From positions 1-46,346 of the IMG/VR virus record IMGVR_UViG_3300022602_003849: DNA of 46,346 bases; one strand, given 5' to 3'. Shown here in pieces: positions 2,818 to 46,219 of this stretch (its first letter is position 1; each line of letters starts with the position of its first letter). A program made the position numbers and the translations under genes. The DNA comes from a virus. Under the pieces are notes generated by a model. That model made no database searches, had not been told where the DNA came from, and saw nothing but the letters and a program-made list of their open reading frames with translations.

Positions 2818-2841
2818 TCCTGCATCACACAGGAAACATTG

Positions 2842-5800: not shown

Positions 5801-5916
5801 GCGTCATCGTAAACAGTAATCCCAGCGTGGGCAGCACCACAAACCAGTTCAGCTTCACCATCAACAACACCAGTGGTTCAGCACAGACCGTGTACTGGGG
5901 CTATGTCACACAATGA
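2842..5916 (+). CDS. Collagen-like tail fibre 1 with WxFGxDG repeats
   Basis: A 1024-residue structural protein. Residues ~9-255 are Gly-X-Y repeats dominated by GPT triplets, which would form a collagen-like triple helix. The rest is a beta-rich shaft with about twelve copies of a W-x-F-G-x-D-G-x-L-x-L-P-like motif (for example [39 protein letters not shown]), spaced irregularly. The last ~130 residues form a different Thr/Asn-rich tip domain. The ATG at 2842 follows AGGAAA at 5-nt spacing. A late promoter lies just upstream. It is probably an adhesin or tail fibre; which virion part carries it is not shown. Bases ~4255-4405 are visibly more AT-rich than the rest of the gene. Confidence 0.88.
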
Positions 5917-8644: not shown

Positions 8645-12423
<3,779 letters not shown>

Positions 12424-15806: not shown

Positions 15807-15831
15807 TCCAAGATCAATCTGGCGAGTGCTC

Positions 15832-17622
15832 ATGAGCGTTTATTCTTATCCTGTCGTGAATCTACAAGGGCCTACTGGCCCTACTGGCCCGCTGGGCGGT
15901 CCTACTGGCCCTGCTGGCACTCCCGGCACAGCAGTAAACACCGGTGCAACTGGTCCAACAGGCGTGCAAGGTCCACAGGGTTTACCTGGAACTGCTGCCA
16001 ACACTGGTGCTACTGGTCCCACAGGCATACGCGGAGCAACTGGCGTGCCGGGAGCAGCTACCAACACTGGCGCCACTGGTCCCACGGGCCCTACCGGCCC
16101 TACTGGACATCAAGGGGTGCCGGGTACTGCTGTGAACACTGGTGCTACTGGCCCTACTGGGCCAACTGGTCCAACGGGTGCTACCGGCACAGTGGCCAGT
16201 GGATCACAGGTATTTGTTACCAATCCAACACCCAGTGTTGACACAACTAGCGGCGCATTAATCGTCACTGGTGGCGCGGGCATAGGCGGCAACGTAAACG
16301 CGGGTGGCAGCGATCATTATTTCGCAGGCAATCTCAATGTCAGCAGCAATCTGTCAGTGCCGGGCGGCAACATCACGCTGAGCAATACCGGTAGAAACAT
16401 CATATCATGGGGCACTGCTGGTGTAGCTGCCCCTACTTTCACTACACGTTCAGCCGGAACTAAGCTGATGTTATTCCCTGGTGTTGCAGCCGGTTCTGTA
16501 GACTATGGTATAGGTATAGAAGCTAGCACCCTGTGGTATAGCATACCCACTGCTGTGAACACACGCCAATTCAAGTGGTATGCAGGTACTACCAACATCA
16601 TGCGCCTCAGCGGGCAGGGTAATCTACTAGTTGGACCAACAACACTGGCATCCGGCAGCACGGCTACTATAGTTGTAGATGGTGCAGGCACTAATGCTGG
16701 CGGCATACAGTTTGCAAATAGCGTCTCTGGCGGCAGCAACATTGGTGTCGGCTTTGGCAATGCTATGGTGTTCTCAAATTATACTGGTGCAATTGGTGCT
16801 GAGACGTATGTTGAGCGCATGCGAATAGACGGCAACGGCAACGTTGGCATAGGCAGCACACAGCCCCAGGCAGCATTGGTTGTAAGTGGCGGCAGCGGCT
16901 CAGCGCCATTGGATGTTATGTTCGTAAACCCCGGAGCTTACAATGCTCAGCTTACCTTACAGGATGCTGGAGGTTCTTGGGTTACTGGAACATTTGATAC
17001 ACAATATTATCTCTACAGCAATGGTGCCAACCAGCTCACCATCGACGCTAACGGTAACACTGCTATACTTTCGACTGCGGCTAGCACCAGCACCGGTACA
17101 GGTGCACTCCTGGTGAGTGGAGGTGTTGGTATAGCAGGCAACATAAACGTAGGTGGATCCCAGCAAACATTAGCAGGCAACGTTTTGGTTGGTTATTCTA
17201 CTAGCAACGGAAACTATCTGCTCCAGGTTAATAGCCAGATATTTGCAACCAGCGCCACTATAGCAACCTCTGATCAGCGTTACAAAGACAACATCACATC
17301 TCTGGGTTCGACATTAGACATAGTGCTGAACTTGAATCCTGTTACCTTTGATTGGAAATCTCATCCAGTTCACAACTTCACTAGCGGGACCAAGGTTGGT
17401 TTCATTGCACAAGAAGTACAGCAAGTTCTCAACACTGCGTCTTATAAAGATAACATTGTATATGAGAATCAGACCATCATGCCAGATGGTACACCAGAAC
17501 CATATCTAGGTTTAAGCGAAAGCTCGCTGATACCGTTATTAGTAAAGGCCTTGCAGGAAATCAATGCTAAACACGATACATTGGCCGCTGAATTCAAAGC
17601 CTATAAAGAATTGCATCCATGA
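15832..17622 (+). CDS. Collagen-like tail fibre 3 with S74 chaperone
   Basis: A 596-residue fibre. Residues ~12-125 are GPT-rich collagen repeats; two TxxGALxVxGGxGIxGNxNxGG motifs follow, around a beta-rich shaft with [11 protein letters not shown]-type repeats. The C terminus is an intramolecular chaperone of the Peptidase_S74 family: it starts SDQRYKDNI, with Ser480 and Lys485 in the spacing of the known Ser-Lys autocleavage dyad, and ends in a likely coiled coil ([20 protein letters not shown]). The chaperone trimerises the fibre and cuts itself off (family knowledge). The ATG at 15832 is preferred over GTG 15826. Its stop overlaps the next small ORF (ATGA). Confidence 0.92.
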
Positions 17623-31550: not shown

Positions 31551-32701
31551 CCAACACTCGATGCTCACTGCCGTGGCAAAGTCTAAGCGTGGACAATCAA
31601 GGTCGCAGCAGGATCTGTTGCAACAGCGATGCACATTACAGAGGTAATGTTCACTATAAATTAGCAGATTGCAGCACCGTGTCTGAAGCTATGAACACAC
31701 CCTATCACAAATCTGTGCGACAAAGCATGCTGCAAGGTGAGCGCCACGAAAGCTGCAAGAAGTGCTGGGACATGGAGGATAGCGGCGGTCGCAGTTTCAG
31801 GCAGATATGGAACGAGATTCTGCCACAGACAGACGAAATCACGCCTCAGTATCTTGATATCACGCTGGGCAACAAGTGCAATTTAACCTGCAGGATGTGC
31901 AATGAAGTAAACAGCCACCTGTGGCACATAGACAATGCCAAATTAGGTTGGGTAACTGATACAGAACTCAGCAATACATTCTGGTTTGAGGATGAAGTTA
32001 CCAAAGATCTACTGATGAACGCAGCTCACAGTGCCTCTCACATAAACTTCCTCGGCGGAGAACCACTGATAGTAGGCGAACAAGTTGCATTGTTAGAACG
32101 CTGCATAGAACTTGGCCGTGCAGATCAAATACAGCTCAGTTATAACAGCAACATGACCGTGCTGCGGCCTCGTCAGATGGAGCTTTGGCAGCATTTTAAA
32201 GGTGTGAATCTCTGCGTGAGCATTGACGGTGTTGGCACACAAAATGATTACATACGACAGAACAGTCGTTGGTCTGATATATTGCATAATCTGGAGCTGA
32301 TACATCTAAATTGTGCTAACGTGCGCATGACAGTGCATGCTACCTTTGGAGTTTACAATGCGCTGTCCTTGCATGAGTTGGTGGCGTGGAGCGATGCTCG
32401 GCCATGGTTTGGCGGGCGTTTACCTTGGTTAAACATGGTGTATCGCCCTCATAACCAAGATCCGCGCTGCCTACCCCAAGAGGTCAAACAGCTGATAGCG
32501 GCAAGGATCCGAGCCTGTATCAAATATCGCAATTTTGACCAAAGCTATGATAGTTATATTGGAGCAATCAATCACATGATGCAGCCCAGTATAAGCCCAA
32601 CCCATTGGCAGGAATTCTGGCAAGCGGTTGATCAATTGGATGCCTTCAAAAAGACCAATATAGCAGAATGTTTACCAGAACTGGCGAGATTCAGACCATG
32701 A
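31547..32701 (+). CDS. Twitch-type radical SAM enzyme
   Basis: A 384-residue protein. The twitch-like N terminus has CSLPWQSLS, Cys24-Cys25 and CKKCW (70-74); the radical-SAM motif CNLTCRMC gives Cys111, 115 and 118, followed by FLGGEP. The layout closely matches the genes at 6163 and 26726 and module 2 of the double protein, so these arose by duplication. The start at 31547 is chosen because it overlaps the previous stop (ATGA); the frame is open to 31508. The substrate is unknown. Confidence 0.87.
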   Translation: MTNTRCSLPWQSLSVDNQGRSRICCNSDAHYRGNVHYKLADCSTVSEAMNTPYHKSVRQSMLQGERHESCKKCWDMEDSGGRSFRQIWNEILPQTDEITPQYLDITLGNKCNLTCRMCNEVNSHLWHIDNAKLGWVTDTELSNTFWFEDEVTKDLLMNAAHSASHINFLGGEPLIVGEQVALLERCIELGRADQIQLSYNSNMTVLRPRQMELWQHFKGVNLCVSIDGVGTQNDYIRQNSRWSDILHNLELIHLNCANVRMTVHATFGVYNALSLHELVAWSDARPWFGGRLPWLNMVYRPHNQDPRCLPQEVKQLIAARIRACIKYRNFDQSYDSYIGAINHMMQPSISPTHWQEFWQAVDQLDAFKKTNIAECLPELARFRP

Positions 32702-33954
32702 CTGTGCATTGGGTTTTTGATGATCCACAGCGGTTCATAACCATGAGCGCTTGTGAACACACAGTGTATAGCCCAGATGGACAAAACAACGACGGGCGTT
32801 GGAACATCAGCAACATACATTGGTATTGGCGCAACGCACAACAATGGTATAGCCGAGATGTATCTTGGCAAGCACATGGACTGGATGATAGGCCAAACCG
32901 CTATGTATATCCCATAGGGGCATTCAGCGGGCCCACTTGGTGGTCGGGCCTGCCCAGCAATGGTTGGGGTCATCCCAGCATGTTTGAAATAATACCTGCA
33001 GTGGTCCTAGAGGATGCGCGACAGGGTAAAGTGCTGCTGTTGATTGATAATCTCAATGAAGGTTTTCATATGCCCATGCTGTGGCGTTTCTTGCACAGTG
33101 AATGCAGCAGGCTTGGTATAAATCCACGCTGCCTAGCATATGTGCATAGTAACACCAAAGACGAACAAGCTTATAACATATGGTGCGATGATCTGGGAAT
33201 CTCAGATAGGTTCCATAACATAGCGTTCTGCCACCTCATGTACCAGCAGCGTGTGGCTTTACCAACCTACGGTACTGTGAACTGGGAGCAGCAGCTATCT
33301 CACAAGTCTCACAATATTGACAGCATAAGAATATATAATTGTCTCAACAGGCGCTCGCATCGCCACAGAGAATATCTATTCCTAAGATTGCTGGAGATGG
33401 ATTTGGTTAAGCACGGTTTGGTCAGCTGTGATAAACTGCACTGGGACTGGACTGACAGTGATATCAAACCCATGACCATGGTCAGGGCACAAGGACTCTT
33501 ACCCATAGTGGTTGATGATCACGATTTTTACAACAACAAAGCCATGCATGGCAACCCTGACATCTATCTCAACAGCTGGTTAAGTGTGATCACAGAGACG
33601 CATGCCAATGATGATCCCTATCATTTATTTGTTAGCGAAAAAGTATGGAAACCCATCTATTTCATGCAGCCTTTCATGACGCTGGGCAACCTAGGCTGTG
33701 ATCAACAGCTGCGCGAATGGGGCTACCAAACATACTGGGACATGGATCACCTGTCGTTTGAAAGCAAAGTATCTCAGATATGCCTCGAATTAAAGCGCAT
33801 GAGGCAGATGAGTCAAAATCAACTCATGGATTGGTATCAGAGATTGGAAGAAAAATGCCAACATAACAAAACTCTGTTTATGAAGCAAGACTTCTTTGAT
33901 AGCCCAGCAGCTGACCGCATTGTCAAAGCCTATGTAGGTTTATTGCCATGCTGA
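32698..33954 (+). CDS. Glycosyltransferase-like protein, paralogue 1 of 4
   Basis: A 418-residue protein. The shared C-terminal core reads SVITETHAND, then FVSEKVWKPIYFMQPFMTLGN and LREWGYQTYWDMD. An upstream element NCLNRRSHRHREYLFLRLLE is also shared with the paralogues at 33948, 39167 and 43509. The SEKVWKP plus HPFM-x-x-G pattern resembles the donor-binding half of GT-B or GT10-like enzymes, so a nucleotide-sugar transferase is the best guess; no direct proof exists. The start overlaps the radical-SAM stop (ATGA). The terminal DESYD found in the other three copies reads DMDHL here. Confidence 0.6.
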   Translation: MTVHWVFDDPQRFITMSACEHTVYSPDGQNNDGRWNISNIHWYWRNAQQWYSRDVSWQAHGLDDRPNRYVYPIGAFSGPTWWSGLPSNGWGHPSMFEIIPAVVLEDARQGKVLLLIDNLNEGFHMPMLWRFLHSECSRLGINPRCLAYVHSNTKDEQAYNIWCDDLGISDRFHNIAFCHLMYQQRVALPTYGTVNWEQQLSHKSHNIDSIRIYNCLNRRSHRHREYLFLRLLEMDLVKHGLVSCDKLHWDWTDSDIKPMTMVRAQGLLPIVVDDHDFYNNKAMHGNPDIYLNSWLSVITETHANDDPYHLFVSEKVWKPIYFMQPFMTLGNLGCDQQLREWGYQTYWDMDHLSFESKVSQICLELKRMRQMSQNQLMDWYQRLEEKCQHNKTLFMKQDFFDSPAADRIVKAYVGLLPC

Positions 33955-35213
33955 ATTTTGTCTTTGAACGGTTTGAAGACACACCAATGCGTGCACGCAC
34001 TAACATGGCTGCCTGCACTGACCGTATCGCAGGCAATGACCACAGCAGTGATTGGCCTCGCTTCAGTGAAAGTGGTTTGCTAGCTTATCTATCTGCTGCT
34101 AACTTTGAATTTTCTGAGTGCACCTTGGGTGATAGGCCTGCCCGCTATGTATATGCTACCAGCACATACAATGGTCCGCATTATTGGGCAGGCTGGTCTG
34201 GTAACGACCAGGGCTTTAGAAGCCTGTTTGAATTCATACCCGATGTGGTCTGCAATGATTGCAGATCAGGACACGCAGTGTTGCTCATAGATCAACTCAT
34301 GGAAGGTTATAGCCACGATAGTCTATACGAATTCTTCCATGCTGAGCTAGAAAGACTATCACTGCCAGCCAGATGTTTGATCTACGTGAGCGGCAATCAC
34401 AGAGAATCTCAACGATATCACAGATGGTTGACCACACAAGATCAGAAACAGCCCATAGTGATGCTGAGCCTGCCACACTTAGAATTTATAAGCCGTGGTT
34501 TTTTCCAAAAACAAATTCAGCTAAATTGGCAAGATTATGCTCATCATCTCAACCAGTCTACGACCAGACCACTGTTATATAATTGTCTGAATCGTGTGAA
34601 CCGATATCATAGGAATCTCATGTTCATGCATCTGTGGCAGGCCAACCTCTTGGAGCACGGCCTTGTGAGCTGTGAGAAACTGGACTGGGCTTGGCATTTG
34701 GCACAGAACGGATGGAGCCATGAACAGATCGCAGCAGCCAAATCATGTTTGCCGCGCATCATAGATTTTGATGATTTCAATAACAATCCAGCCATGGATA
34801 TCGCACAGCATATCTATCAGCACACAAGGATTAGCGTGATCACCGAAACCCTGGGCGACGATGCAGCAGATCAGTTGTTTGTCACAGAGAAACCGTTCAA
34901 GAGCATATACATGCTGCATCCGTTCATGGTGCTTGGACAACAGGGACATCTAGCACAGCTGCGCGACTGGGGATATGAAACGTTTGGTGATTTTTGGGAC
35001 GAGAGCTACGATCACATGCCCAACATGGCACAGCGTGCAGCAGCTATAACTGCAAACCTTTGCCAGCTCAGAGACAACAGAGATCTCTATGAGCTGCATC
35101 GCGATCTGAGACATATTTGTGAGCATAACCAAAACAATTTCCTCAGTCGGTCAGCTGATACACCATATCTCAGGACGTTGATACAGGCATTGTATGCTGC
35201 GTTGGATAACTAG
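33948..35213 (+). CDS. Glycosyltransferase-like protein, paralogue 2 of 4
   Basis: A 421-residue protein that is clearly paralogous to its neighbour. It shares the N-terminal half (RYVYATSTYNGPHYWAGW against RYVYPIGAFSGPTWWSGL), NCLNRVNRYHRNLMFMHL, SVITETLGDDAADQLFVTEK, HPFMVLGQQGHLAQLRDWGY and DFWDESYDH. The family is probably GT-B-like (inference from the TEK and HPF-x-x-x-G pattern). It overlaps the previous gene by 7 nt and ends 3 nt before the B12-type radical-SAM gene. The N-terminal region binds the unknown acceptor in this model. Confidence 0.62.
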   Translation: MLNFVFERFEDTPMRARTNMAACTDRIAGNDHSSDWPRFSESGLLAYLSAANFEFSECTLGDRPARYVYATSTYNGPHYWAGWSGNDQGFRSLFEFIPDVVCNDCRSGHAVLLIDQLMEGYSHDSLYEFFHAELERLSLPARCLIYVSGNHRESQRYHRWLTTQDQKQPIVMLSLPHLEFISRGFFQKQIQLNWQDYAHHLNQSTTRPLLYNCLNRVNRYHRNLMFMHLWQANLLEHGLVSCEKLDWAWHLAQNGWSHEQIAAAKSCLPRIIDFDDFNNNPAMDIAQHIYQHTRISVITETLGDDAADQLFVTEKPFKSIYMLHPFMVLGQQGHLAQLRDWGYETFGDFWDESYDHMPNMAQRAAAITANLCQLRDNRDLYELHRDLRHICEHNQNNFLSRSADTPYLRTLIQALYAALDN

Positions 35214-35216
35214 GCA

Positions 35217-37136
35217 ATGAGCTTGACCAAAGTATACATGGCACAGATCAACAACAGCTTTGGAGGGCATGCATTCTTGCCTTACAGCGTTGGATTGCTT
35301 TGGGCACATGCTGTGTCTAATCCTGATATCGCTGCTAGCCATGAGCTGGGAGGACTGTTGTTTCTCAGAGAACCATTGGACAAAGCCATGTCAAAGATAG
35401 TGGATCCTGACGTTTTAGCACTCAGCTGCTATCTATGGAATTGGAACTACAACATGGCTTTGGCCAGACTAGTCAAAATCTCATATCCACGCTGCGTGAT
35501 TGTACTCGGAGGGCCGGAAGTTCCCAGCAGCGGATTCGTCGATGACGAAATCTTGATAGCCGATTATTTGGTGCACGACGAGGGTGAGGTGACGTTCACA
35601 GAGTTGCTGAGGATGATCAGAGACGGCAGCGATCCCAGTACAGTGCTTGGAATAAGCTATCGCAAAGATGGTACGCCACGCAAGACTGCACAAAGACCGA
35701 GATTATCTGATCTGTCTGTGATACCTAGCCCATATCTCACCGGGGTGTTTGACCAACTCATGCAGCAGCATTCAAACATTGCATGGCATGCCAGCCAAGA
35801 GACACACCGAGGTTGTCCATACAGTTGTACCTTCTGCGATTGGGGCAGTGCCGTGTACACAAAGATACGCCAGTTTGATCAGCCACGACTGATCAACGAG
35901 TACGAATGGTTTGGCACCAAACAGATCGATCTGCTCTATAACTGTGATGCCAACTACGGCATCCACAAGCGGGATTTGTATCTCACTGCGGCCATGGTGG
36001 ATGCCAAGCGCAGGCATGGCGGATATCCCAACAAGTTCCGTGCAGCTTATGCCAAGAAGAGCGACGACAAGGTGTTTGATATAGCCAGCATGTTAAACAG
36101 CGCCGGTATGAGCAAGGGTGTTACACTGAGCTTGCAGAGCCTAGATGATAACACCCTGGAGTTGATCAAGCGCAAGAACATTGCCATGGCTGATTTTCAA
36201 AAGTTAGCAGCCAGATACCGCTCAGCCGGAATACCAACATACACTGAGCTAATAGTTGGCCTGCCTGGTGAAACGCTGGCCACTTACACAGCTGGTATTG
36301 AACGTGTGCTACAAGGCGGGCAGCATGACAATCTCAACATCTATCCCTGCATGCTGCTGCGCAACTCAGAGATGGCTGATCCCGCGCACATGGCCACACA
36401 TGGCATGGTCAAGCTGCGAGTGCCGCTCATGGACAACCACAGCAGCACGCGACCCGACGAGATACCAGAGTTCAACGACATAGTGATAGCCACTGCCAGC
36501 ATGCCGCACGCAGATTGGCAGCAGGCCTGGCGCCTCAGCTGGATCATTCAGTCGCTGCACTGCCTGGGACTGACACAGTACTTGGCCATGGACTACTGGC
36601 GGGTGCATGGCAGCTACGTGGAGTTCTACCATCGCCTGCTGCGTGCCTACCGAGGCACGCCCACGCTGCTGGGACAGCAGATCGCTCGAGCTGATCTCAG
36701 CCTTGAGCGCATGCTGTCGGGCGCTGCGGATCTGGGACAGCACGACAGCAGGTTCGGTGACGTCAACTGGCCAGTGGAAGAGCTGACCTTCCTGCAGCTG
36801 CGCACCGAGGCAGCCCAGTTCTATGCACAGCTGGTACCGTTCCTGCGAGCCTGGATGACAGATGATCACATTGCCGATGCCCTACGCTTCCAGCAGGCTT
36901 GGATCCTGGGTCCAGACCATCATCAGCACGACCTGGTGTGCCTTGACCATGACATACCACGGATGATAGCCGCAGCGTTGCAATCCAAGCCCGAGACAGT
37001 GATCAAACAGCGCACAGAGCTTTGGTTTAGGTCAGATAACTATTACACCTGTCCACAGACCTGGGCACGACAGATCGTGTGGTATGGTCGCAAGCAGGTG
37101 CTGCACAAGAGGAGAGCAGAACATGTGGATGGTTGA
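35217..37136 (+). CDS. B12-binding-type radical SAM enzyme (YgiQ-like)
   Basis: A 639-residue protein. The N-terminal ~190 residues form a Rossmann-like B12-binding-type domain (ALSCYLWNWNYN, VIVLGGPEVPS, VHDEGEVTF); the DxHxxG motif of classical cobalamin binders is missing, as in many relatives. The radical-SAM motif CPYSCTFC gives Cys200, 204 and 207, with HRGC just ahead and LIVGLPGE near residue ~348. It is a paralogue of the gene at 41566. Such enzymes often methylate or rearrange unreactive carbons. The last codons (ARQIVWYGRKQVLHKR) recur at 38952-39065 in a remnant. Composition becomes more GC-rich in its second half. Confidence 0.85.
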   Translation: MSLTKVYMAQINNSFGGHAFLPYSVGLLWAHAVSNPDIAASHELGGLLFLREPLDKAMSKIVDPDVLALSCYLWNWNYNMALARLVKISYPRCVIVLGGPEVPSSGFVDDEILIADYLVHDEGEVTFTELLRMIRDGSDPSTVLGISYRKDGTPRKTAQRPRLSDLSVIPSPYLTGVFDQLMQQHSNIAWHASQETHRGCPYSCTFCDWGSAVYTKIRQFDQPRLINEYEWFGTKQIDLLYNCDANYGIHKRDLYLTAAMVDAKRRHGGYPNKFRAAYAKKSDDKVFDIASMLNSAGMSKGVTLSLQSLDDNTLELIKRKNIAMADFQKLAARYRSAGIPTYTELIVGLPGETLATYTAGIERVLQGGQHDNLNIYPCMLLRNSEMADPAHMATHGMVKLRVPLMDNHSSTRPDEIPEFNDIVIATASMPHADWQQAWRLSWIIQSLHCLGLTQYLAMDYWRVHGSYVEFYHRLLRAYRGTPTLLGQQIARADLSLERMLSGAADLGQHDSRFGDVNWPVEELTFLQLRTEAAQFYAQLVPFLRAWMTDDHIADALRFQQAWILGPDHHQHDLVCLDHDIPRMIAAALQSKPETVIKQRTELWFRSDNYYTCPQTWARQIVWYGRKQVLHKRRAEHVDG

Positions 37137-37233
37137 CTGGCTGCTGGCACCTTACAGGCGCTGGCAGCAACATCGGCGCTATAGGCAACGCCTGGCAGAG
37201 CTGCGCAAGCGCGATCCGTTCATATACCGATGA
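37123..37233 (+). CDS. 36-residue small protein, copy 1
   Basis: The product begins MWMVDWLLAPYRRWQQHRRY and ends ELRKRDPFIYR: a short hydrophobic N terminus followed by a very basic helix. The ATG lies inside the end of the radical-SAM gene and the stop overlaps the next ATG (ATGA), so it is coupled on both sides. A second copy at 39052 shares about 21 of 36 residues in the same order. Two conserved copies behind the same gene end argue strongly that it is translated. It could be a membrane-surface peptide or an accessory of the radical-SAM enzyme (inference). Confidence 0.72.
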   Translation: MWMVDWLLAPYRRWQQHRRYRQRLAELRKRDPFIYR

Positions 37234-38042
37234 ACAACCGGAGGCTCATAGCATTCGGAGACAGCTGGACCTGGGGCAGCGAGCTGCGCGATCCCCAGAT
37301 ACCGGGTTCGCGCGAGGACTTTGACCCCCGCGACGATCAATACCGCTTGGATCATGCATGGCCCAGCTGCCTCGGTCGTGCGCTGAACAGGGATCAGGTG
37401 ATCAACCTGGGTCGACCTGCCTGCAGCAACGACAGCATACTGCGTGCGCTCACTGAGTGGCTGGCAGGTTCGGGACACCTGCAGGGCCATGGCAACAGCC
37501 GTGACTTGGTGTGCATAGGTTGGACCAGCCCTGAGCGCAGGGATTTTTGGTTCCACGACGTGGATCAACCTGGCTGCGAAGACAGAGGTTGGCTGACCAT
37601 GTACCCCATGTGGACTCACACCTACAGGCACGCAGCCATCAACAGGTTCAGCAGGGAGTACGTGCAGCACTGGTGGCATGCCGCGGAATACATGCATCGC
37701 TACATCAACACCATACACCGCGCACAGCAGCTGCTGGATCATGCGGGCGTGGACTACTGCATGTTCCAAGCCATCTACCACTATCATGCGGTGCTGATAG
37801 AGCAGTGGAACGACCAGCTGTACCAAGCGCAGCACGAGCAGAGCATCAGCGACGCTGATCGCATGATATGGCAGCTGATAGATGCTGGTCGGTTCATGCA
37901 CAAGGACCAGCCCATGGCCACCTTCCACAACCACATACTGGCCCATCGCCCTGCCAGCCAAGTGCTGCTGATATCGCATCCCAACGCGCTGGGCCACCAG
38001 ATATGGGCTGACCACATGCGAGCATGGTTGTCCAGCAGATGA
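37230..38042 (+). CDS. SGNH-family hydrolase or esterase
   Basis: A 270-residue protein. The N-terminal block I motif FGDSWTWG has Ser12 as nucleophile; an Asn-rich block II-III region follows (NLGRPACSND), and the C-terminal SHPNALGHQIWADHM has the expected His of block V. SGNH enzymes remove or transfer acyl groups on sugars and other esters. The role fits trimming of a modified glycan made by the neighbouring enzymes. The start overlaps the small ORF stop and the end overlaps the next gene (ATGA). It lies in a GC-rich segment. Confidence 0.8.
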   Translation: MNNRRLIAFGDSWTWGSELRDPQIPGSREDFDPRDDQYRLDHAWPSCLGRALNRDQVINLGRPACSNDSILRALTEWLAGSGHLQGHGNSRDLVCIGWTSPERRDFWFHDVDQPGCEDRGWLTMYPMWTHTYRHAAINRFSREYVQHWWHAAEYMHRYINTIHRAQQLLDHAGVDYCMFQAIYHYHAVLIEQWNDQLYQAQHEQSISDADRMIWQLIDAGRFMHKDQPMATFHNHILAHRPASQVLLISHPNALGHQIWADHMRAWLSSR

Positions 38043-38788
38043 GAGCCGCGGTGCTACTGCGTGGCCACAGGCGCACCTGGGACCTCTGCCGCGATGCCAT
38101 GGTACGCACCATGGATCAGCTGTGCCTGACCACTCACTACTACATATGCCACTGGCGCAGCGGCAGCAACCCATGGCCCATGCGATCGCATGCGGGCATG
38201 CACATCAAGCATGCTGAGCTGACCGGTCCAGAGCACTGGGACCTCGAGGATTCCATGAACTGCTTCACGGCCCCCAGCTGGCAGGCACAGCGCTGCTATC
38301 GTGCCATGATGGCCACTGGCATCAGCTACGACTTGGTCATGGACACCAGATCAGACATATGGCTGGAGCCAGCAGCAGCCCAGCCTCAGCTGCCTCAGCC
38401 GGGCGAGATACACAGCACCAGACTGCTGGACCCATGGCACGACAGCAGCATGCCGGGCATGGAGGACCACCTGTTCGTGGCAGATCCTCAGACCATGGGC
38501 CTGTGGTGCCAGAGGCACCTGCATCCCCGCTATGACATCAGGTACAACCACTGCATACTCTGTAACCACTGCAGCGAGCAGGGCTTGGTGCCTCGCCAGA
38601 TAGACTGGCTGGTTTCGCGCTTCGTGCGCCCCAATGCCGCTGCCCATCAGCCGCTGGATGCCCAGCAGGTCCACCTCGCACACATGGACTGGAACCGCAT
38701 GACACGCGAGCTGCGCCTGGCGCACTGCGCAGCCGCAGGCATAGACCACACAGAGTATGACGCTCCCTATCATCTTGGCACCGCGTGA
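38039..38788 (+). CDS. Glycosyltransferase-like protein
   Basis: A 249-residue protein. It has the same signature as the gene at 12462-13160: an N-terminal AVLLRGHRRTW and a later YDLVMDTRSDIWL. The acidic TRSD may bind metal and nucleotide sugar, as in GT-A enzymes; this is a motif-level guess. The start overlaps the SGNH gene (ATGA); an in-frame ATG at 38024 is less likely. It is GC-rich and Cys/His/Trp-rich (HCILCNHCSEQG). It is followed by a deletion scar rather than an intact gene. Confidence 0.6.
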   Translation: MRAAVLLRGHRRTWDLCRDAMVRTMDQLCLTTHYYICHWRSGSNPWPMRSHAGMHIKHAELTGPEHWDLEDSMNCFTAPSWQAQRCYRAMMATGISYDLVMDTRSDIWLEPAAAQPQLPQPGEIHSTRLLDPWHDSSMPGMEDHLFVADPQTMGLWCQRHLHPRYDIRYNHCILCNHCSEQGLVPRQIDWLVSRFVRPNAAAHQPLDAQQVHLAHMDWNRMTRELRLAHCAAAGIDHTEYDAPYHLGTA

Positions 38789-38844
38789 CATTTGCTGAAT
38801 CGCCACAGAGAGCCGCATAATTACACCATACACGGAGGACGGGC

Positions 38845-38946
38845 ATGCGAGTTGGTATGATAGGACTGGGCAAGCTGGGCTTGCCAGCAGCAGAGGCCAT
38901 GGCAGCAGTGCATGATGTCATGGGCCTGTGGTCGCCCGACCTGTGA
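38845..38946 (+). pseudogene. Truncated nucleotide-sugar dehydrogenase, N-terminal fragment
   Basis: After a good GGAGG ribosome-binding site an ATG opens a 33-residue frame: MRVGMIGLGKLGLPAAEAMA followed by AVHDVMG. It matches the first 27 residues of the intact enzyme at 40403 (VIGLGKLGLPVAEAMARSHDVMG), including the GLGKLGLP nucleotide-binding loop. After that the frame changes to LWSPDL and stops. It is a remnant of a second dehydrogenase gene. The NAD-binding loop alone cannot be active. Confidence 0.85.
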
Positions 38947-38951
38947 GAGTG

Positions 38952-39065
38952 ATGTTTGCAGCAGACAACTATTACAGCAACAGCAGTGATTGGGCTAGGC
39001 AAATAGTCTGGTACGGTAGAAAACAAGCATTACACAAGAGGAGGATAGACTATGTGGTTGATTAG
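38952..39065 (+). pseudogene. Truncated B12-type radical SAM gene, C-terminal fragment
   Basis: The 37-residue frame contains DNYYSNSSDWARQIVWYGRK and ALHKRR, matching the last ~33 residues of the gene at 35217 (SDNYYTCPQTWARQIVWYGR and VLHKRR). The rest of the gene, some 600 codons, is absent. It begins 5 nt after the dehydrogenase fragment stop. Together the two fragments form a deletion scar of a dehydrogenase-radical-SAM pair. The next small gene starts inside its end, exactly as in the intact copy. Confidence 0.85.
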
Positions 39066-39162
39066 TTGGTTACTTACACCTTGGCGCCGTTACAAGCAGC
39101 ATCGGGCTTTCAAGAAACGCATGGCAGAACTGCGCCGCCGCGATCCATTCATCTACAAGTGA
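39052..39162 (+). CDS. 36-residue small protein, copy 2
   Basis: The product begins MWLISWLLTPWRRYKQHRAF and ends ELRRRDPFIYK. It has the same length and layout as copy 1 at 37123: hydrophobic start, basic helix and RDPFIY end. Despite the loss of the gene in front of it, this copy has no stop or frameshift, so it is probably still under selection. GAGGA just upstream could serve as its ribosome-binding site. It lies 4 nt before the glycosyltransferase-like gene. Confidence 0.72.
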   Translation: MWLISWLLTPWRRYKQHRAFKKRMAELRRRDPFIYK

Positions 39163-39166
39163 TCGC

Positions 39167-40378
39167 ATGCCATCGTTGATTCGGGCTCGTCCGCCTAGCA
39201 TAGTCTATGAAGACCTTGACAATCGTCGCAATCTGCTAGCCTGTAACCAGTGGGCCACTGAAGGCATTAGGCCCTTGCATGATTCTTGGGTGCATGCACA
39301 GCTTACCACAGCTTGGCCCGCTTACAGCGTGGCCAATCGGCCAAGGCACTATGTGTTTCCCATTGGCTGTTTCAACAATCCCCAGATGTGGGCTAAGGAA
39401 CCTTTTGCCTACGTACCAGAATCCGTTATGCGTGATGCGCAGCATGGTCGAGTGCTGTTGATATTTGACCAGAGCCAAGAAGGCAACGCAGATCCTGACC
39501 TCTGGTCGTGGTTCTATGCCACTGCGCACAGGTGGCAGATCAATCCTTCACAGATCATCTACATGACCAGTGATCATTTAGCCGAAAAATCACATATTTC
39601 TTGGTGTGATTTCAACGCAGTAAATCTACAGGTTACTGTGATTAGCACCCTGTTTAATCTACACGCCATCACTGACATGCTGCGCAAGCGAGGCGTTGAG
39701 CCCGTGCACTACGATCAATGGCTGCAGGCCAAGCATAGTGGCACCAGCCTGTACAACTGCCTCAACAGGGTCACACATGCCCATCGCCGTTGGCTGTTCC
39801 TCAAGCTGTTTGAGCAGGGTTTGGTGCCGCAGGGGTTGATCAGCATGGACAGCTTCACTGACGTGCCTGCGCTGCCAGATGGCACGCTGTTGGACGATAG
39901 CCTAGTGCGCCGCGTGCAGGGTCTGCTGCCCATGGTAGTAGACAAGGCTGATTTCACAGAGAACCACTTCAACGATCTCAATCCAGACATCTATCTGCGC
40001 AGCTGGGTCACAGTGGTCACTGAAACCTACGTTGATGATGCGCAGCTGCTGATAGGCGAGAAGGTGTTCAAGCCCATGCTGTGTTCTAGCCCCTTCATGA
40101 TACTGGGCAATCCTGGCACGCTTGCACGCTTGCGCGAGCTGGGCTTTGAAACCTTTGGCATGCTCTGGGACGAAAGCTATGATCAGTTGCATACCACTGC
40201 TAGGATGGATGCTATGGTTGCACAGCTGCAGCAGCTGAACCAGATCACAGATCTGGCACAGCACTTCAGGCGAGCAGAATCTGCGCTGCGACACAATCAT
40301 GCGCTGGCCTGGCAGCTGTGGACTGGCAGCAGAGATTATCAGAGGTTACTTGCTATTTGGCGCGATTTGGCAGCATAA
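39167..40378 (+). CDS. Glycosyltransferase-like protein, paralogue 3 of 4
   Basis: A 403-residue protein with the family signatures: RHYVFPIGCFNNPQMW near residue 60, NCLNRVTHAHRRWLFLKLFE, VVTETYVDDAQLLIGEKVFKPM, SPFMILGNPGTLARLRELGF and MLWDESYDQ. It belongs with the genes at 32698, 33948 and 43509. Function is inferred as GT-B/GT10-like sugar transfer. It follows the small ORF copy 2 by 4 nt and precedes the intact dehydrogenase by 24 nt. Confidence 0.62.
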   Translation: MPSLIRARPPSIVYEDLDNRRNLLACNQWATEGIRPLHDSWVHAQLTTAWPAYSVANRPRHYVFPIGCFNNPQMWAKEPFAYVPESVMRDAQHGRVLLIFDQSQEGNADPDLWSWFYATAHRWQINPSQIIYMTSDHLAEKSHISWCDFNAVNLQVTVISTLFNLHAITDMLRKRGVEPVHYDQWLQAKHSGTSLYNCLNRVTHAHRRWLFLKLFEQGLVPQGLISMDSFTDVPALPDGTLLDDSLVRRVQGLLPMVVDKADFTENHFNDLNPDIYLRSWVTVVTETYVDDAQLLIGEKVFKPMLCSSPFMILGNPGTLARLRELGFETFGMLWDESYDQLHTTARMDAMVAQLQQLNQITDLAQHFRRAESALRHNHALAWQLWTGSRDYQRLLAIWRDLAA

Positions 40379-40402: not shown

Positions 40403-41569
40403 ATGAAAGCAAGCGTTATAGGTTTAGGCAAGCTGGGCTTGCCAGTAGCAGAAGCAATGGCTAGATCACACGATGTCATGGGCATAGATGTCAAGCCAGT
40501 CAGCACACAGTTGGTCAGGCAGGGCAACATGGAGCAGATAGTTGTCCACGGTGACATCATATTCATTGCTGTGCAGACACCACATGATCCAGCTTACGAC
40601 GGCAGCGCGCCAACCAGCCATTTGCCTAACAAGGATTTTGATTACAGCACGGTGATCTCTGTGTTGGATCAATTGGACAAGCTGGACATTGACGGCAAGA
40701 CCGTGGTTCTGATCAGCACTGTGCTGCCAGGTACCACTCGCAGGCAGCTAGCCAAGCATCTAACCAAGGCCAATCTCGTGTACAATCCCTATCTCATCGC
40801 CATGGGCACGGTGGCCTACGACATGGTCAATCCCGAGATGATCATGATAGGCACGGCCACTGGCCGCGATGACATGATCGTGCAGCAGCTGATCAGCTTC
40901 TACAAGCCACTGATGCAGAACAATCCCCGCACGGTGGTTGGCACCTGGGAAGAGATGGAAAGCACCAAGATATTCTACAACACCTTCATATCGGCCAAGC
41001 TCAGCCTGGTTAACATGATACAGGATGTAGCCGAGCGCATAGGCAACATGGACGTTGACGTGGTTGCCAAGGCACTAGCCGACAGCACCTATCGCATCAC
41101 TGGTCCTGCTTACATGAAACCCGGCATGGGCGACGGTGGACCCTGCCATCCGAGAGACAACATCGCGCTGCGCTACATGGCAGAGAAGCTGAAACTAGGC
41201 TACGACCTCTTTGACAGCATCATGCGTGCTCGCGAGGTGCAGGCAGAGAACATCGCACGCGAGCTGGTCAGCCACCGGCTGCCAGTGGTGATACTGGGCA
41301 AGAGCTTCAAGCCAGGCGTGCCCTACACTGACGGCAGCTACGGCATGTTGGTAGGACACTATTGCCAGTCTCTGGGAGCTGATGTATCCTACGATTCTGT
41401 GTCATCCGAACCTGCAGCCTATCTACTAGGACATCAGGGCTATTACACCCAGCAGCTAGATGAGATGGCACAGGGCAGCGTGGTGGTGGATCCGTGGCGT
41501 AGCAGCAAGGTCCCAGATGGTATCATCTACATACCCTATGGTAATACCAGAGAAATTCCAAGCGTATGA
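40403..41569 (+). CDS. UDP-glucose/GDP-mannose-type dehydrogenase
   Basis: A 388-residue nucleotide-sugar dehydrogenase. The N-terminal Rossmann motif is GLGKLGLPVAE (7-17), followed by FIAVQTP and LISTVLPGTT, an active-site helix with FYNTFISAKLSLVN, and the catalytic Cys248 in GGPCHPRDN (usual motif GG-S-C-F-P-K-D). The C-terminal domain carries ILGKSFKPGVPYTDGS for the nucleotide sugar. It oxidises a nucleotide hexose to the uronic acid with two NAD+. AAAGGATGATGCA precedes the ATG. Its stop overlaps the radical-SAM start (ATGA). A truncated second copy lies at 38845. Confidence 0.88.
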   Translation: MKASVIGLGKLGLPVAEAMARSHDVMGIDVKPVSTQLVRQGNMEQIVVHGDIIFIAVQTPHDPAYDGSAPTSHLPNKDFDYSTVISVLDQLDKLDIDGKTVVLISTVLPGTTRRQLAKHLTKANLVYNPYLIAMGTVAYDMVNPEMIMIGTATGRDDMIVQQLISFYKPLMQNNPRTVVGTWEEMESTKIFYNTFISAKLSLVNMIQDVAERIGNMDVDVVAKALADSTYRITGPAYMKPGMGDGGPCHPRDNIALRYMAEKLKLGYDLFDSIMRAREVQAENIARELVSHRLPVVILGKSFKPGVPYTDGSYGMLVGHYCQSLGADVSYDSVSSEPAAYLLGHQGYYTQQLDEMAQGSVVVDPWRSSKVPDGIIYIPYGNTREIPSV

Positions 41570-43527
41570 CCAAACGTCTCAACCTTGTGCAGCCAAATTT
41601 CGCACAAGGGCCACGGGAGCTCAATGCCTATTATCTACCCTACAGTGCAGGGGTGCTGTGGAGCTATGCCAAGAGCATTCCAACTATCGCTGATACCTGG
41701 GAACTGGACAGGCTGGCTTGGCGTAGAGATCCAATTGATCGTGTGTACAAGCAGTTAGCAGAATGTGACGTCATTGGTTTCAGTACCTATGTCTGGAACA
41801 AGAATTATAATTACGAATTAGCCAGGCGTATCAAGGATTACAATCCCAGCTGCACCATAGTGTTCGGTGGTCCAGAACCTCCAGTTGATCGCGAAGATAT
41901 ATTCCAGCTGCATCCCTATATCGATGTTGTGGTCAAACACGAAGGCGAGAAGGCCTTTGCTGATATCCTGGAGCATGGAGTAGGCCCATGGGTCAGAGGC
42001 ATAATCGAAAACGATGGCGGTTGGCCGCAGTCCTGGGGAGAACCGCAGCGCATAAAACAGCTGGATCACATACCAAGCCCCTACACAACAGGCGTCTTTG
42101 ATAGGATAATGGCTGACAATCCTGAAATCATATGGAATGCCACGCTGGAGACCAACAGAGGATGTCCTTATCAATGCACGTTCTGCGATTGGGGTAGCTT
42201 AACCTACAACAAGATCAAGAAGTTTGATCTACAGCGCGTGTTCAATGACATAGAATGGATAGGCGAGAATGAGTGCGATTGGATGAGCATAACTGATGCC
42301 AACTTTGGCATGTTTGTAGCTCGCGATGATCTCATAGCCGAAAAGGTCATAGACACGCAGGATCGATTGGGCTATCCTCGTCGCATGGGATTGAGCTGGG
42401 CCAAGAATCAAAAGTCAGAAGTGGTCAAGCTGGCAAAGAAACTAACCACCAGGGGTTTTAACAACGGGCTCACGCTCAGCGTGCAGAGCTTAGACGATCA
42501 TGTGCTGACCGAGATCAAGAGACAGAACCTGGAGATCAATAAGCTTAACGAAGTGTTTGATCTGTGCCAGCGAGAAGGCGTGACCGTGAACACTGAGCTA
42601 ATACTTGGGTTGCCAGGTGAGACTGTCAACAGCTGGCGGCGTAATGTCTGGGGTTTGTTGGAAATAAACCAACACAGCGGCATAGAGTTCTTCCAGGCAC
42701 AGCTTTTGGAAAACGCAGAGATGAATCTCACGCAGCGTGAGGTACATGCTATTACCAGCATCGCAGTGTGCGATTACCTCAGCGGGAACGACGACGGTGA
42801 TGGTATAGCAGAATCTGTTGAAGTGGTTACCAGCACCCGGGATCTATCACTAGAAGACATGCTGGCCTGCCAGGAATTTAGTTGGTTCATCAACACCTGG
42901 CACATCAATGGCATCAGCCAATGGTACAGCAGATTCCTCAACAGATCGCTGGGCATCAGCTACGAGGAATTCTACACGGGTTTCCAAGCCTGGCTGCAAG
43001 ACCACGCTGATTGGTGGCGCAGTGAACGGCAATTGGTCATGGATGCCTATCGCAGTTGGATGACCACTGGCAGCATCAGCGTTGATCCCGTGGCAGGTGT
43101 GAAGATACACGGCTGGAACCTCATCCATCTCAGCAATCTACGCATGCATGCCCACAACAGCTACCAACAGTATCTTTCAGCCGTGGAGATCTACGCAGAG
43201 TCCGCCTATGGGCACCTGTTGGAATCCGCAGTGCCCGCAGATTCAATGATCAGGCCTCTGTTGGATATGAGAAAGCTTACCAATGCCTATGTGGTACGGT
43301 ATACCAGCATCACACAGTACCCCATGCAGGTACACACAGATAGCAACATCTTGGATTTCATCATATCCGAAAGAGACTTGATCTACAAGCAGGATCCCTA
43401 TCAATTGGATTTCCCAGAAGACAAGCGCATGAGCCTCACTGTTTTCATGCAGAACATCTATTATGCACGACGCCGTAATTTCGGCAAGGCACAGATGTTA
43501 CTGGGCCATCAGAGATCAGAAAAATAA
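41566..43527 (+). CDS. B12-binding-type radical SAM enzyme, second copy
   Basis: A 653-residue paralogue of the gene at 35217. The cluster motif CPYQCTFC gives Cys200, 204 and 207, at exactly the same positions. The N-terminal B12-type domain has VFGGPEPPVD and VKHEGEKAF and again lacks DxHxxG; LILGLPGETV lies near residue 347. Its C terminus (NIYYARRRNFGKAQML) is similar in kind to, but clearly diverged from, that of the first copy. It is coupled to the dehydrogenase (ATGA), suggesting that the nucleotide uronic acid or a derived glycan is its substrate (inference). The end overlaps the convergent gene by 19 nt. Confidence 0.86.
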   Translation: MTKRLNLVQPNFAQGPRELNAYYLPYSAGVLWSYAKSIPTIADTWELDRLAWRRDPIDRVYKQLAECDVIGFSTYVWNKNYNYELARRIKDYNPSCTIVFGGPEPPVDREDIFQLHPYIDVVVKHEGEKAFADILEHGVGPWVRGIIENDGGWPQSWGEPQRIKQLDHIPSPYTTGVFDRIMADNPEIIWNATLETNRGCPYQCTFCDWGSLTYNKIKKFDLQRVFNDIEWIGENECDWMSITDANFGMFVARDDLIAEKVIDTQDRLGYPRRMGLSWAKNQKSEVVKLAKKLTTRGFNNGLTLSVQSLDDHVLTEIKRQNLEINKLNEVFDLCQREGVTVNTELILGLPGETVNSWRRNVWGLLEINQHSGIEFFQAQLLENAEMNLTQREVHAITSIAVCDYLSGNDDGDGIAESVEVVTSTRDLSLEDMLACQEFSWFINTWHINGISQWYSRFLNRSLGISYEEFYTGFQAWLQDHADWWRSERQLVMDAYRSWMTTGSISVDPVAGVKIHGWNLIHLSNLRMHAHNSYQQYLSAVEIYAESAYGHLLESAVPADSMIRPLLDMRKLTNAYVVRYTSITQYPMQVHTDSNILDFIISERDLIYKQDPYQLDFPEDKRMSLTVFMQNIYYARRRNFGKAQMLLGHQRSEK

Positions 43528-44711
43528 CGGCCGATATCAGGGCTATGATTGGTTCGTTCATGTGCTGAATTCAGTACTGCGAGGTTATGTCGGCATATAT
43601 CGCGGCTTTCGTCAATGAATCTAGAGAATCTATCTGAGGACCAAGCAGCTATGTCTGCGATCAGATCAACCACTGCTGATAAGCGTTGCTGGTGATCGAG
43701 GATGCTGTCGTAGCTTTCATCCCACCAATCACTGAACGTCTTATAACCATCTCGTTTCAGTGCGGCAAGGCACCCAGCTGTTCCGACTATGATGAAAGCT
43801 TGCGCGTAACGCATGGGATGGTAGGTCTTTTCACTGATGAACACTCTATTAGCATGGAACAGCGTTTCGGTGACCACACTTATACCAGTTTGTAGATATA
43901 ATTGGTCAATTGAACTACCAAAATGATTGGCAATGAGATTGGATTCTTGGTCATCTGTATCTAATATCATTGGTAGGCTGTTATACAGTTGATCAATGCC
44001 ATTGATAATCATCTGGCTGTCTGGTAGCTCGGCACACTGTTCCCTGACTATTGAAGCTGCGTTGCTTCCTTCGCAATCCCTGGCAAAGCTTAGATAGAAA
44101 TCTTCCAGCAGCCCTGCCTTGTTAAGCATCACTAACAGCTGGAAACGATGTGCTCTAAAGCGGCGATTGAAGCATAGGAAACGCCTACGCACTTGCCTTG
44201 CAATAGTGATTGGTTGTTGCTGTTGCCAGCTACAGCTGATGCTTTCAAATGCCCTGACGTGCAGAGGCAAGAATGGCAATCCCGCATCTCGCATATCATC
44301 CTTTATATCGTGTGAACCTCCTGCAAATATTACTCGATCAGCAGGTATGCCGTAGCTTTGCATATAATCTGTGAACCTGTGATTAGGATAGGGTATGAAA
44401 CCCTCGAGGCTAAGGTTAATCAGCAAGAAACCTCTAGCCTGCAGCAGGCCATCCATCAGCAGAGGGTTTCGAACGAACGGATCTAGTATCTGCCATCCTG
44501 GCATGAAATCTCTGTCTGTATAAAAATAGTTCAGCTCATATAGCCATCTATCACGGACTGTTAGCTCTGCTATTGTTTTCCTAGCCAAGCGTTGGTCTAA
44601 ACCAAGATGCAGCTCCAATTGACTGTAATCTTCTTGACCAGTTGGATACCAGTTTACAGCAGGTTTATCATTGTAAATCAGAGAATGATATGGCAGATAG
44701 ATCTTTTCCAT
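43509..44711 (-). CDS. Glycosyltransferase-like protein, paralogue 4 of 4
   Basis: A 400-residue protein and the most diverged paralogue. It keeps CFNRRFRAHRFQLLVMLNKA, SVVTETLFHANRVFISEKTYHPM, AFIIVGTAGCLAALKRDGY and DWWDESYDS. The frame is open to 44876, but that part overlaps the start of the carbamoyltransferase gene; the ATG at 44711 (MEKIYLPYHSLIY) is the sensible start. It is the only island gene on the minus strand and more AT-rich than its neighbours, which suggests separate insertion. Activity is inferred as for the other three. Confidence 0.62.
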   Translation of the reverse strand: MEKIYLPYHSLIYNDKPAVNWYPTGQEDYSQLELHLGLDQRLARKTIAELTVRDRWLYELNYFYTDRDFMPGWQILDPFVRNPLLMDGLLQARGFLLINLSLEGFIPYPNHRFTDYMQSYGIPADRVIFAGGSHDIKDDMRDAGLPFLPLHVRAFESISCSWQQQQPITIARQVRRRFLCFNRRFRAHRFQLLVMLNKAGLLEDFYLSFARDCEGSNAASIVREQCAELPDSQMIINGIDQLYNSLPMILDTDDQESNLIANHFGSSIDQLYLQTGISVVTETLFHANRVFISEKTYHPMRYAQAFIIVGTAGCLAALKRDGYKTFSDWWDESYDSILDHQQRLSAVVDLIADIAAWSSDRFSRFIDESRDICRHNLAVLNSAHERTNHSPDIGRYFSDL

Positions 44712-44716
44712 TAGGA

Positions 44717-44726
44717 TACTTATAAT
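44717..44726. promoter_or_regulatory. Divergent promoter-like element
   Basis: The 32-bp gap between divergent starts holds TATAAT on the plus strand (44721-44726, 17 nt before the carbamoyltransferase ATG, followed by GAGGTGG). On the minus strand it reads TATAAGTA, one mismatch from TATAAATA, ending 5 nt before the ATG at 44711. One short sequence may thus serve both genes. Confidence 0.4.
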
Positions 44727-44743
44727 TGTAAAAGAGGTGGTAC

Positions 44744-46219
44744 ATGATAACTTGGGGCATATCAGCAGGTGGTCACGACGCAGCGATCTCAGTGCTGCGA
44801 GACGGTGAGATAGTGCTTGCTGCCCACAGCGAGCGCTACAGCAGGCGCAAGAACGATCCCCAGCTGTGCTGGCCACTGATCCGAGAAGCGTTCATGCACG
44901 GTGAACCCAACACCATCATATGGCACGAACGACCTTGGCTGCTGAAGACTCGCGCTGCCTATGCAGGACAGTGGGATGAGGTGTGGGGTCCCAGTGTAAA
45001 GGATCATCTCAAGGGCAAATTTCTAGACAAGGTTCCCCTGCGCACTGTGTTGCATCATCACAGCCATGCTGCAGGTGGTTATTATACCAGCGGGTTCAGG
45101 GATGCTGTGATCATCGTGGTAGATGCCATAGGCGAGTGGGACACTCTCAGCATCTGGGAAGGTCGTGACCACGAAGTCTACAAGCGTGCCAGCATCAGCT
45201 ATCCCAACAGCCTTGGCCTGTTCTACACAGCCATGACACAGCGCTGTGGTTTCAAACCCAACGAAGAAGAATACATCATGATGGGCCTGGCAGCACTGGG
45301 AGATCCGCTGCGTCTGGCGCAGCAGATGCGCGATGACCTCATCGAAGTCACAGACAGTTGGCCTTTCTTCAAGCTGCGGCACAACCTGCACAGAGGCTGT
45401 CAATGGTGGCTGCCTGAAGAGACCAATGCAGCAGACATCGCTGCTGCAGCACAGCAGATATTCACCACTATCATGGTCAGCATCTGTGCCTATGCTCGCG
45501 ACCTCGTGGGCAGCAACAATCTGGTGCTCAGCGGCGGCTGTGCGCTGAACTGCGTGACCAACAGCATGCTGGTCTACAGCAATATCTGGGACCGCGTGTG
45601 GATCATGCCCAATCCCGGCGATGCCGGCAACAGCCTGGGTGCTGCATTAGCCTACCACGGGGAACATATCAAGTGGCAAGGACCCTATCTGGGCCACAAC
45701 ATCACGGGCGACTATCCTGTGCAGCGTGCGCTGTCAGTGCTGGGCCTGGGACAGCTGGTTGGCATAGCCAACGGTCGCGCAGAGTTCGGACCACGTGCGT
45801 TTGGTAACCGCAGCCTGCTGGGAGATCCCAGAGATCCAGACATCAAGCACAAGATGAATGTGGCCAAGAAGCGCGAGAGCTTCAGACCGTTCGCGCCAGT
45901 GATCATAGAAGAACTGGCAGGCAGCTACTTTGATGTTCTGGGACAGGATCACAGCTACATGCAGTACACCGTGCGCTGCAAGAGTCCTGATCTCTATCCT
46001 GGCATCGTGCATGTGGATGGTACCAGCAGGCTGCAGACAGTGAACCGGCATCAGCATCCAAAACTCTGGGAGCTGTTGGTGCGTTGGTACAACATGACTG
46101 AATGTCCCATGTTGGTCAATACCAGCTTGAATATCAAAGGTCAGCCCCTGGTTAACACAGAGGCTGACGCAGAAGCATTTACCAGTGAATACGGTATCCC
46201 GGTGTTCTGCCGAGATTAA
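44744..46219 (+). CDS. NodU/CmcH-family carbamoyltransferase
   Basis: A 491-residue O-carbamoyltransferase. The N-terminal ASKHA-type domain has GISAGGHDAAISVL (5-18), the metal-binding HHHSHAAGG (104-112), VVDAIGEWDT and LSGGCALNC near residue 265; the C-terminal domain has AEFGPRAFGNRSLLGDP, which binds carbamoyl-adenylate. All landmark motifs are present, so it is likely active. The family moves a carbamoyl group from carbamoyl phosphate with ATP to a hydroxyl of a sugar or other molecule. Relatives are common in T4-type marine phages. GAGGTGG precedes the ATG. Its stop overlaps the convergent gene (TTAA). The acceptor may be the product of the radical-SAM and sugar genes. Confidence 0.9.
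   Translation: MITWGISAGGHDAAISVLRDGEIVLAAHSERYSRRKNDPQLCWPLIREAFMHGEPNTIIWHERPWLLKTRAAYAGQWDEVWGPSVKDHLKGKFLDKVPLRTVLHHHSHAAGGYYTSGFRDAVIIVVDAIGEWDTLSIWEGRDHEVYKRASISYPNSLGLFYTAMTQRCGFKPNEEEYIMMGLAALGDPLRLAQQMRDDLIEVTDSWPFFKLRHNLHRGCQWWLPEETNAADIAAAAQQIFTTIMVSICAYARDLVGSNNLVLSGGCALNCVTNSMLVYSNIWDRVWIMPNPGDAGNSLGAALAYHGEHIKWQGPYLGHNITGDYPVQRALSVLGLGQLVGIANGRAEFGPRAFGNRSLLGDPRDPDIKHKMNVAKKRESFRPFAPVIIEELAGSYFDVLGQDHSYMQYTVRCKSPDLYPGIVHVDGTSRLQTVNRHQHPKLWELLVRWYNMTECPMLVNTSLNIKGQPLVNTEADAEAFTSEYGIPVFCRD

Follow-up and report, generated by a model that had tools for sequence, protein, structure and literature searches.

This study identified a family of phage microproteins that share a C-terminal tail ending in the motif DPFIY, and the existence of this family and its link to phage carbamoyltransferases (CTs) are almost certain. 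The family is real and, as far as the searched libraries and literature show, undescribed. It is a widespread viral protein family with at least 173 distinct sequences and is missing from the family libraries, which probably reflects the small size of its members (only 30-50 aa). Phage carbamoyltransferases thus gain a partner module that was previously not known.

Two microprotein genes in a viral fragment

The window, by which we mean the whole stretch of 46,346 nucleotides that was analyzed, is a 46-kb IMG/VR virus record and represents a fragment (Table 1). The earlier note on this DNA had described two 36-codon ORFs that share an MW start, a WLL-x-P element, a basic helix, and RDPFIY near the C-terminus, and the two ORFs proved to be as described. 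Copy 1 (MWMVDWLLAPYRRWQQHRRYRQRLAELRKRDPFIYR) and copy 2 (MWLISWLLTPWRRYKQHRAFKKRMAELRRRDPFIYK) each comprise 36 codons and a stop, and are 61% identical to each other. Both begin inside the end of a radical-SAM (rSAM) frame with the same overlap: the start lies 14 nt ahead of the stop of a 639-codon ORF for copy 1 and of a 45-codon remnant for copy 2, which was confirmed to be intact behind this stump. Both copies have a strong Shine-Dalgarno sequence, positioned at a matching distance from the start (AAGAGGAG...ATG). The RDPFIY codon pattern was found twice in the window vs 0 times in 100 dinucleotide shuffles, and an ORF of the 36-aa type with the same rSAM overlap was also present in two other contigs, the rSAM proteins of which are 72% identical; the two ORFs are therefore not chance occurrences. 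Outside the overlap, the dN/dS was 0.26 between copies 1 and 2 and 0.12 when copy 1 was compared with its closest relative (relative A), indicating that synonymous and nonsynonymous changes did not occur at equal rates.

Table 1. Features of the window around the two microprotein genes and the carbamoyltransferase gene
Feature	Position	Strand	Basis or remark
B12-binding radical-SAM protein (639 aa), gene shares its last 14 nt with copy 1	35217..37136	+	profile matches
Shine-Dalgarno region, copy 1 (GAGGAG)	37102..37122	+	sequence
Microprotein copy 1, 36 aa, ends RKRDPFIYR	37123..37233	+	72% identity to single copy of relative A (L364), same position
SGNH/DUF6071 hydrolase-like protein, start overlaps copy 1 (ATGA)	37230..38042	+	gene order A only
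254-aa protein, glycosyltransferase-like by context, no Pfam match	38024..38788	+	gene order A
UDP-glucose dehydrogenase stub, homologous over 28 codons to ~38928	38845..38946	+	89% to relative A, 71% to the full copy of the window
Mosaic junction, gene order A / gene order B	38926..38930		gene orders of relatives; GC shift
Remainder (3' end, 45 codons) of second radical-SAM gene, runs into copy 2 with 14-nt overlap	38928..39065	+	56% identity to radical-SAM C-terminus
Shine-Dalgarno region, copy 2 (AGGAGG)	39031..39051	+	sequence
Microprotein copy 2, 36 aa, ends RRRDPFIYK	39052..39162	+	75% identity to single copy of relative B (L362), same position
Glycosyltransferase-like protein (403 aa) immediately following copy 2, no Pfam match	39167..40378	+	gene order B; paralogues at 32668, 33948, 43509(-)
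UDP-glucose dehydrogenase, full length	40403..41569	+	profile matches
Second B12-binding radical-SAM protein, 653 aa	41566..43527	+	profile matches
NodU/TobZ-type carbamoyltransferase, 491 aa	44744..46219	+	PF16861 6e-48, PF02543 3e-39, phrog_1601 4e-93

The window also encodes four paralogous glycosyltransferase-like proteins that are about 27-34% identical (32668-33954, 33948-35213, 39167-40378, and 43509-44876 on the minus strand), and a Pfam and PHROG scan of those that were scanned yielded no match. A relative of these paralogues also precedes the peptide in L060, L093, and L117. The listed GTG start of the minus-strand paralogue overlaps the start of the CT gene; its true start is probably located further in, because in relative B the same minus-strand gene and the CT gene stand back to back without overlap. 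Elsewhere in the window, three long proteins with collagen-like (GPTGPTG) repeats, probably tail or fibre proteins, are encoded at 2839-5916, 8678-12082, and 15826-17622.

Extent and conservation of the family

We searched viral contigs and bacterial and archaeal genomes for further members by using a degenerate DNA pattern for ELRx[KR]DPFIY. At least 120 stretches of viral contigs matched the pattern, and 257 billion bases of bacterial and archaeal genomes contained six matches, one of which (L125) was a true member. Two bacterial matches (L126 and L129) were rejected, as these 307- and 328-aa proteins, which resemble glycoside hydrolases, contain RDPFIY by chance close to their N-terminus, a trap for motif searches; in the three remaining bacterial matches, the motif was not seen in the translation scan. 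Membership was defined by a basic helix followed by a C-terminal DP[FY][IL]Y no more than 5 residues from the stop, and both copies of the window have these features. The distinct peptides of the family are mostly 33-40 aa long. Their C-terminal module consists of the basic helix and (E-L-R-K-R)-D-P-F-I-Y-(K/R), the N-terminus of the stand-alone members (30-50 aa) is variable, and 0 to 3 residues separate DPFIY from the stop.

Part of the motif had been written into the first pattern, and conservation was therefore measured again on sets obtained without it, namely through the CT profile and through aldolases. The results revealed that the D, the P, and the last Y were invariant in 99 of 99 tails found by HMM without the motif pattern, whereas the first aromatic residue was F in 93, Y in 4, and H in 2 of these tails and the aliphatic residue was I in 97 and L in 2. 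The third codon positions within the motif are free, and selection therefore acts on the protein. A Shine-Dalgarno sequence was present at 88 of 171 family starts vs 7% of random positions. The earlier note had proposed a separate functional peptide missed by annotation, and the large family recovered, which demonstrates conservation in related phages, together with the purifying selection and the Shine-Dalgarno enrichment, strongly supports this proposal.

The peptide has indeed been overlooked by annotation. A search for a matching family model returned nothing better than an E value of 0.03 in PHROGs and 0.1 in Pfam and no hit in NCBIfam, a PDB sequence search with the peptide gave no match up to E 10, and the string DPFIYK was not found in a literature search that covered 5.4 million papers. 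A tblastn search of the peptide against named phages also gave no match; this result was not taken as absence, because the low-complexity filter may mask the basic helix.

Association with carbamoyltransferases

CTs of the TobZ/NodU family carbamoylate hydroxyls. A NodU/TobZ-type CT was the commonest downstream neighbour in the peptide loci, usually with an ATGA overlap. Among the matches listed, a CT was present in 98 of 122 peptide loci as fetched and elsewhere in the record for 16 of the remaining 23 viral records, giving a total of 114 of 121, whereas random viral contigs contained neither a CT (0/44) nor a tail (0/44). The window likewise carries both, with its CT gene 5-7 kb from the peptide copies. 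In the reverse search, which started from the CT profile alone, a tail was found nearby in 66 of 80 CT loci (65 by HMM, plus L165), mostly directly upstream. The CT is upstream of the peptide in six loci (L005, L023, L041, L089, L090, and L118), and for a few tails, the contig, which is fragmentary, contains no CT. The tail module is thus genetically tied to one set of phage O-carbamoyltransferases of the NodU/CmcH/TobZ type.

The tail was mostly missing from a second CT set, formed by the nearest relatives of the CT of the window, in which 7 of 48 records contained it. On the CT tree, tail presence changed 11 times vs 43 times in shuffles. On the basis of these two findings, the tail belongs to particular CT lineages. 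The CT columns that separate CTs with and without a tail were considered as a possible binding site and rejected, since these columns follow the tree (11 vs 43).

The genes upstream of the peptide vary and include those encoding a DnaG-like primase, an SGNH/DUF6071 protein, a transketolase-like protein, a SPASM-type protein, and an aldolase. In L025, L033, and L064, as in many phages, the peptide-CT cassette is situated between a DnaG-like primase gene and a large replicative-helicase-like gene. An additional small ORF resembling a membrane protein is present in L197 (between 3738 and 3997) and, downstream of the peptide, in L036 and L082; it is located between tail and CT or immediately behind the tail.

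This distribution also bears on the suggestion of the earlier note that the peptide may be an accessory to the rSAM enzyme, and on the related reading that it is the substrate of this enzyme in the manner of a RiPP precursor. That the peptide and rSAM genes overlap, as they do in the window and three relatives, would suit such a role, as would the distant similarity of the rSAM protein to RiPP C-methyltransferases (TIGR03975, 2.5e-17, a score far below the cut-off of that model). However, among the matches listed, the rSAM type of the window occurred in only 3 of 121 peptide loci, vs a CT in 114 of 121 records, so that the constant association with a maturase expected of a RiPP precursor was not observed; moreover, copy 2 stands behind a mere rSAM remnant, and tails are present on enzymes that are not RiPP enzymes. 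The suggestion is largely refuted by this distribution, and we regard it as very improbable.

The 4-nt ATGA overlap with the next start, which is found in most loci, could alternatively indicate a cis-acting translation signal, in which pausing of the nascent chain or termination followed by reinitiation would link translation of the upstream gene to that of the CT at its start. Such coupling is difficult to reconcile with the six loci in which the CT is upstream and with the distance of the CT in the window, and the variable spacing between DPFIY and the stop (0-3 residues) and the free third codon positions also argue against it. A signal of this type is thus highly doubtful.

The tail as a separable module

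The tail was found not only in microproteins but also as the C-terminus of larger proteins, namely an SGNH/DUF6071 protein (L015), GatZ-like aldolases (L070 and L203), and a SnoaL-like protein (L202). We surveyed 74 viral GatZ-like aldolase loci, in which several contigs are near-copies and the counts are thus not independent. Where the CT was the next large gene (n=58), the tail was fused to the aldolase in 38 cases, encoded as a stand-alone peptide between the two genes in 15, and missing in 5; for aldolases without an adjoining CT (n=15), the corresponding numbers were 5, 4, and 6. The DPFIY tail is a conserved, selected, and exchangeable C-terminal module that occurs either alone or fused to the enzyme whose gene immediately precedes it. 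A short motif at the C-terminus can accordingly serve as an exchangeable unit in phage biosynthetic operons, and the natural fused and unfused pairs, that is, aldolases with and without the tail, make its function directly testable.

The earlier note had also considered a membrane anchor, and in this case the peptide would be a monotopic microprotein with an amphipathic N-terminus that holds the CT cluster at the host membrane. The hydrophobic moment is raised in the first 14 residues (mean z 1.38, 70% above 1, moderately amphipathic), an aromatic residue is present within the first 12 residues in 95% of the members, and the mean net charge is +8. Nevertheless, the whole-chain hydrophobic moment was not above that of shuffles, and an amphipathic or hydrophobic N-terminus, found in most members, was not found in those with acidic N-termini (L030, L111, L182, and L094) or in the enzyme-borne tails, which have no anchor. 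The proposal can therefore apply only to most N-termini and fails for the conserved C-terminal part, because some members are acidic N-terminally or are C-terminal tails of enzymes. As an account of the family, a membrane anchor appears improbable. An anchor alone, a RiPP precursor, and translational coupling each conflict with features that were tested.

Origin of the two copies

To trace how two copies came to lie in one window, we compared its gene order with those of two relatives, each of which has one copy. The order in relative A (L364) is rSAM, peptide, SGNH, glycosyltransferase, and UDP-glucose dehydrogenase, and that in relative B (L362) is rSAM, peptide, a glycosyltransferase-like gene homologous to the one at 39167, UDP-glucose dehydrogenase, rSAM, a glycosyltransferase-like gene, and carbamoyltransferase. 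The window follows order A, with copy 1, up to codon 28 of UDP-glucose dehydrogenase; from about 38928, it continues with the final 45 codons of an rSAM gene, followed by order B, comprising copy 2, glycosyltransferase, and UDP-glucose dehydrogenase. The GC content is 0.598 from about 36350-36400 to 38928 and 0.50-0.52 on either side. Judged from these gene orders, the two copies are orthologues brought together by a mosaic junction, and the rSAM stump is its scar.

The description of a duplicated gene in the earlier note is thus wrong as history, since two gene orders with matching flanking genes in A and B were joined. Tandem duplication was rejected because the copies are less similar to each other (61%) than copy 1 is to A (72%) or copy 2 to B (75%). 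That copy 2 is intact although only a stump precedes it follows from the joining of the two gene orders and calls for no further explanation. We also sought a recombination breakpoint within the main rSAM gene by its identity to A or B and found no clear switch along the gene, which is about equally distant from both throughout its length; the sampled relatives are therefore not the direct donors. One tail match per record was the rule (43 of 44 tail-bearing records). The L207 record (138.5 kb) is the only other one with two tail matches, the second of which is weak (E 2.8e-4).

Possible functions of the tail

The reading that we favour, tentatively and with a little less than even confidence, is that the tail is a docking tag for the CT pathway. 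In this reading, one component of the carbamoylation pathway would recognise the invariant DPFIY end, the simplest candidate being the CT or its complex. The cargo would be set by the variable N-terminal part and would be a membrane surface in the case of a short amphipathic N-terminus or the partner enzyme in the case of a fusion. In the window, both copies would presumably serve the CT at 44744. The co-occurrence of tail and CT (114 of 121 among the matches listed, and 66 of 80, vs 0/44 in random contigs) is consistent with docking, as are the separability of the module (38 fused and 15 stand-alone among the 58 aldolase-CT pairs, and further tails on SGNH and SnoaL-like proteins), the fact that CT and peptide may stand in either order, the invariance of D, P, and the last Y (99/99), the dN/dS of 0.12-0.26, and the single copy in 43 of 44 records.

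Other findings fit docking less well. AlphaFold2 was applied to read-through chains of L023 (CT then peptide) and L197 (peptide then CT), and the CT was predicted with a mean pLDDT of 88 and 87, respectively, whereas DPFIY remained disordered (pLDDT <50) in both chains and no cis docking was seen in these single chains with shallow alignments. Direct docking on the CT is therefore not supported by the prediction. In addition, the second CT set, which contains the nearest CT relatives of the window, mostly does without a tail (7/48 records), and a few fragmentary contigs carry a tail but no CT. Finally, the Tyr is invariant while F, Y, and H replace one another two places earlier, which hints at a requirement for the hydroxyl that docking does not demand.

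This last point leads to the main rival, an unlikely one in our estimate, according to which the peptide is a carrier or acceptor: the hydroxyl of the invariant DPFIY Tyr would be carbamoylated by the CT or would bear a sugar assembled by the glycosyltransferases, aldolase, and hydrolase encoded nearby, with the tail as a carrier-like domain, stand-alone or fused. Its fuller version, in which the tail is a ribosomally made carrier domain and the CT cluster assembles a carbamoylated group, with or without glycosylation, on the hydroxyl of its invariant Tyr, is somewhat less likely still. We know of no such carrier system from any virus, be it a free microprotein or a domain welded to a pathway enzyme. 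The invariance of the last Y (99/99) beside a varying first aromatic residue (F/Y/H) points to a carrier, as does the occurrence of the tail in both fused and stand-alone form, which is typical of carrier domains. CTs modify hydroxyls. A phage CT with 5-hydroxymethylcytosine as its target is known (PMC8670742), and carrier peptides of about 50 aa exist (TglA, PMC9016710). However, enzymes (aldolase, SGNH, and SnoaL-like) also carry the tail, the P and the D are as invariant as the Y, and the other CT set works without a tail. The docking tag remains our preferred, though tentative, explanation.

Comparison with known systems

A 5-hydroxymethylcytosine (5hmC) carbamoyltransferase is known from phage (PMC8670742), and the enzyme partner of the tail belongs to the same family as this enzyme and the other phage Nol-like carbamoyltransferases (phrog_1601; cyanophage and pelagiphage). 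Unlike the loci of our family, the CT neighbourhoods of HTVC008M, Mosig, C48C1, and AG-345-L05 contained no tail when checked. The gene co-occurring in the 5hmC system, thymidylate synthase, had a homologue in only 8 of 44 tail-bearing records; this co-occurrence was therefore rejected as a sign of 5hmC carbamoylation, and the known DNA-modification setting is not general here.

The carrier peptide LysW and the scaffold peptides TglA and PEARL are likewise ribosomal peptides of about 50 aa with a conserved C-terminus in a biosynthetic cluster, a likeness that is an analogy only; unlike them, the DPFIY tail is also fused to enzymes, and its C-terminal residue is variable. The RiPP precursors PqqA and MftA are short genes beside radical-SAM enzymes, as in the window, but the DPFIY family has no general rSAM association. 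The nearest GenBank example is marine virus AG-345-D19 (MH319727.1), a single-cell record without annotation in which the peptide is unmentioned; its CT is 45% identical to that of L025, and an ORF ending KLRKSDPYIYEE is located just upstream.
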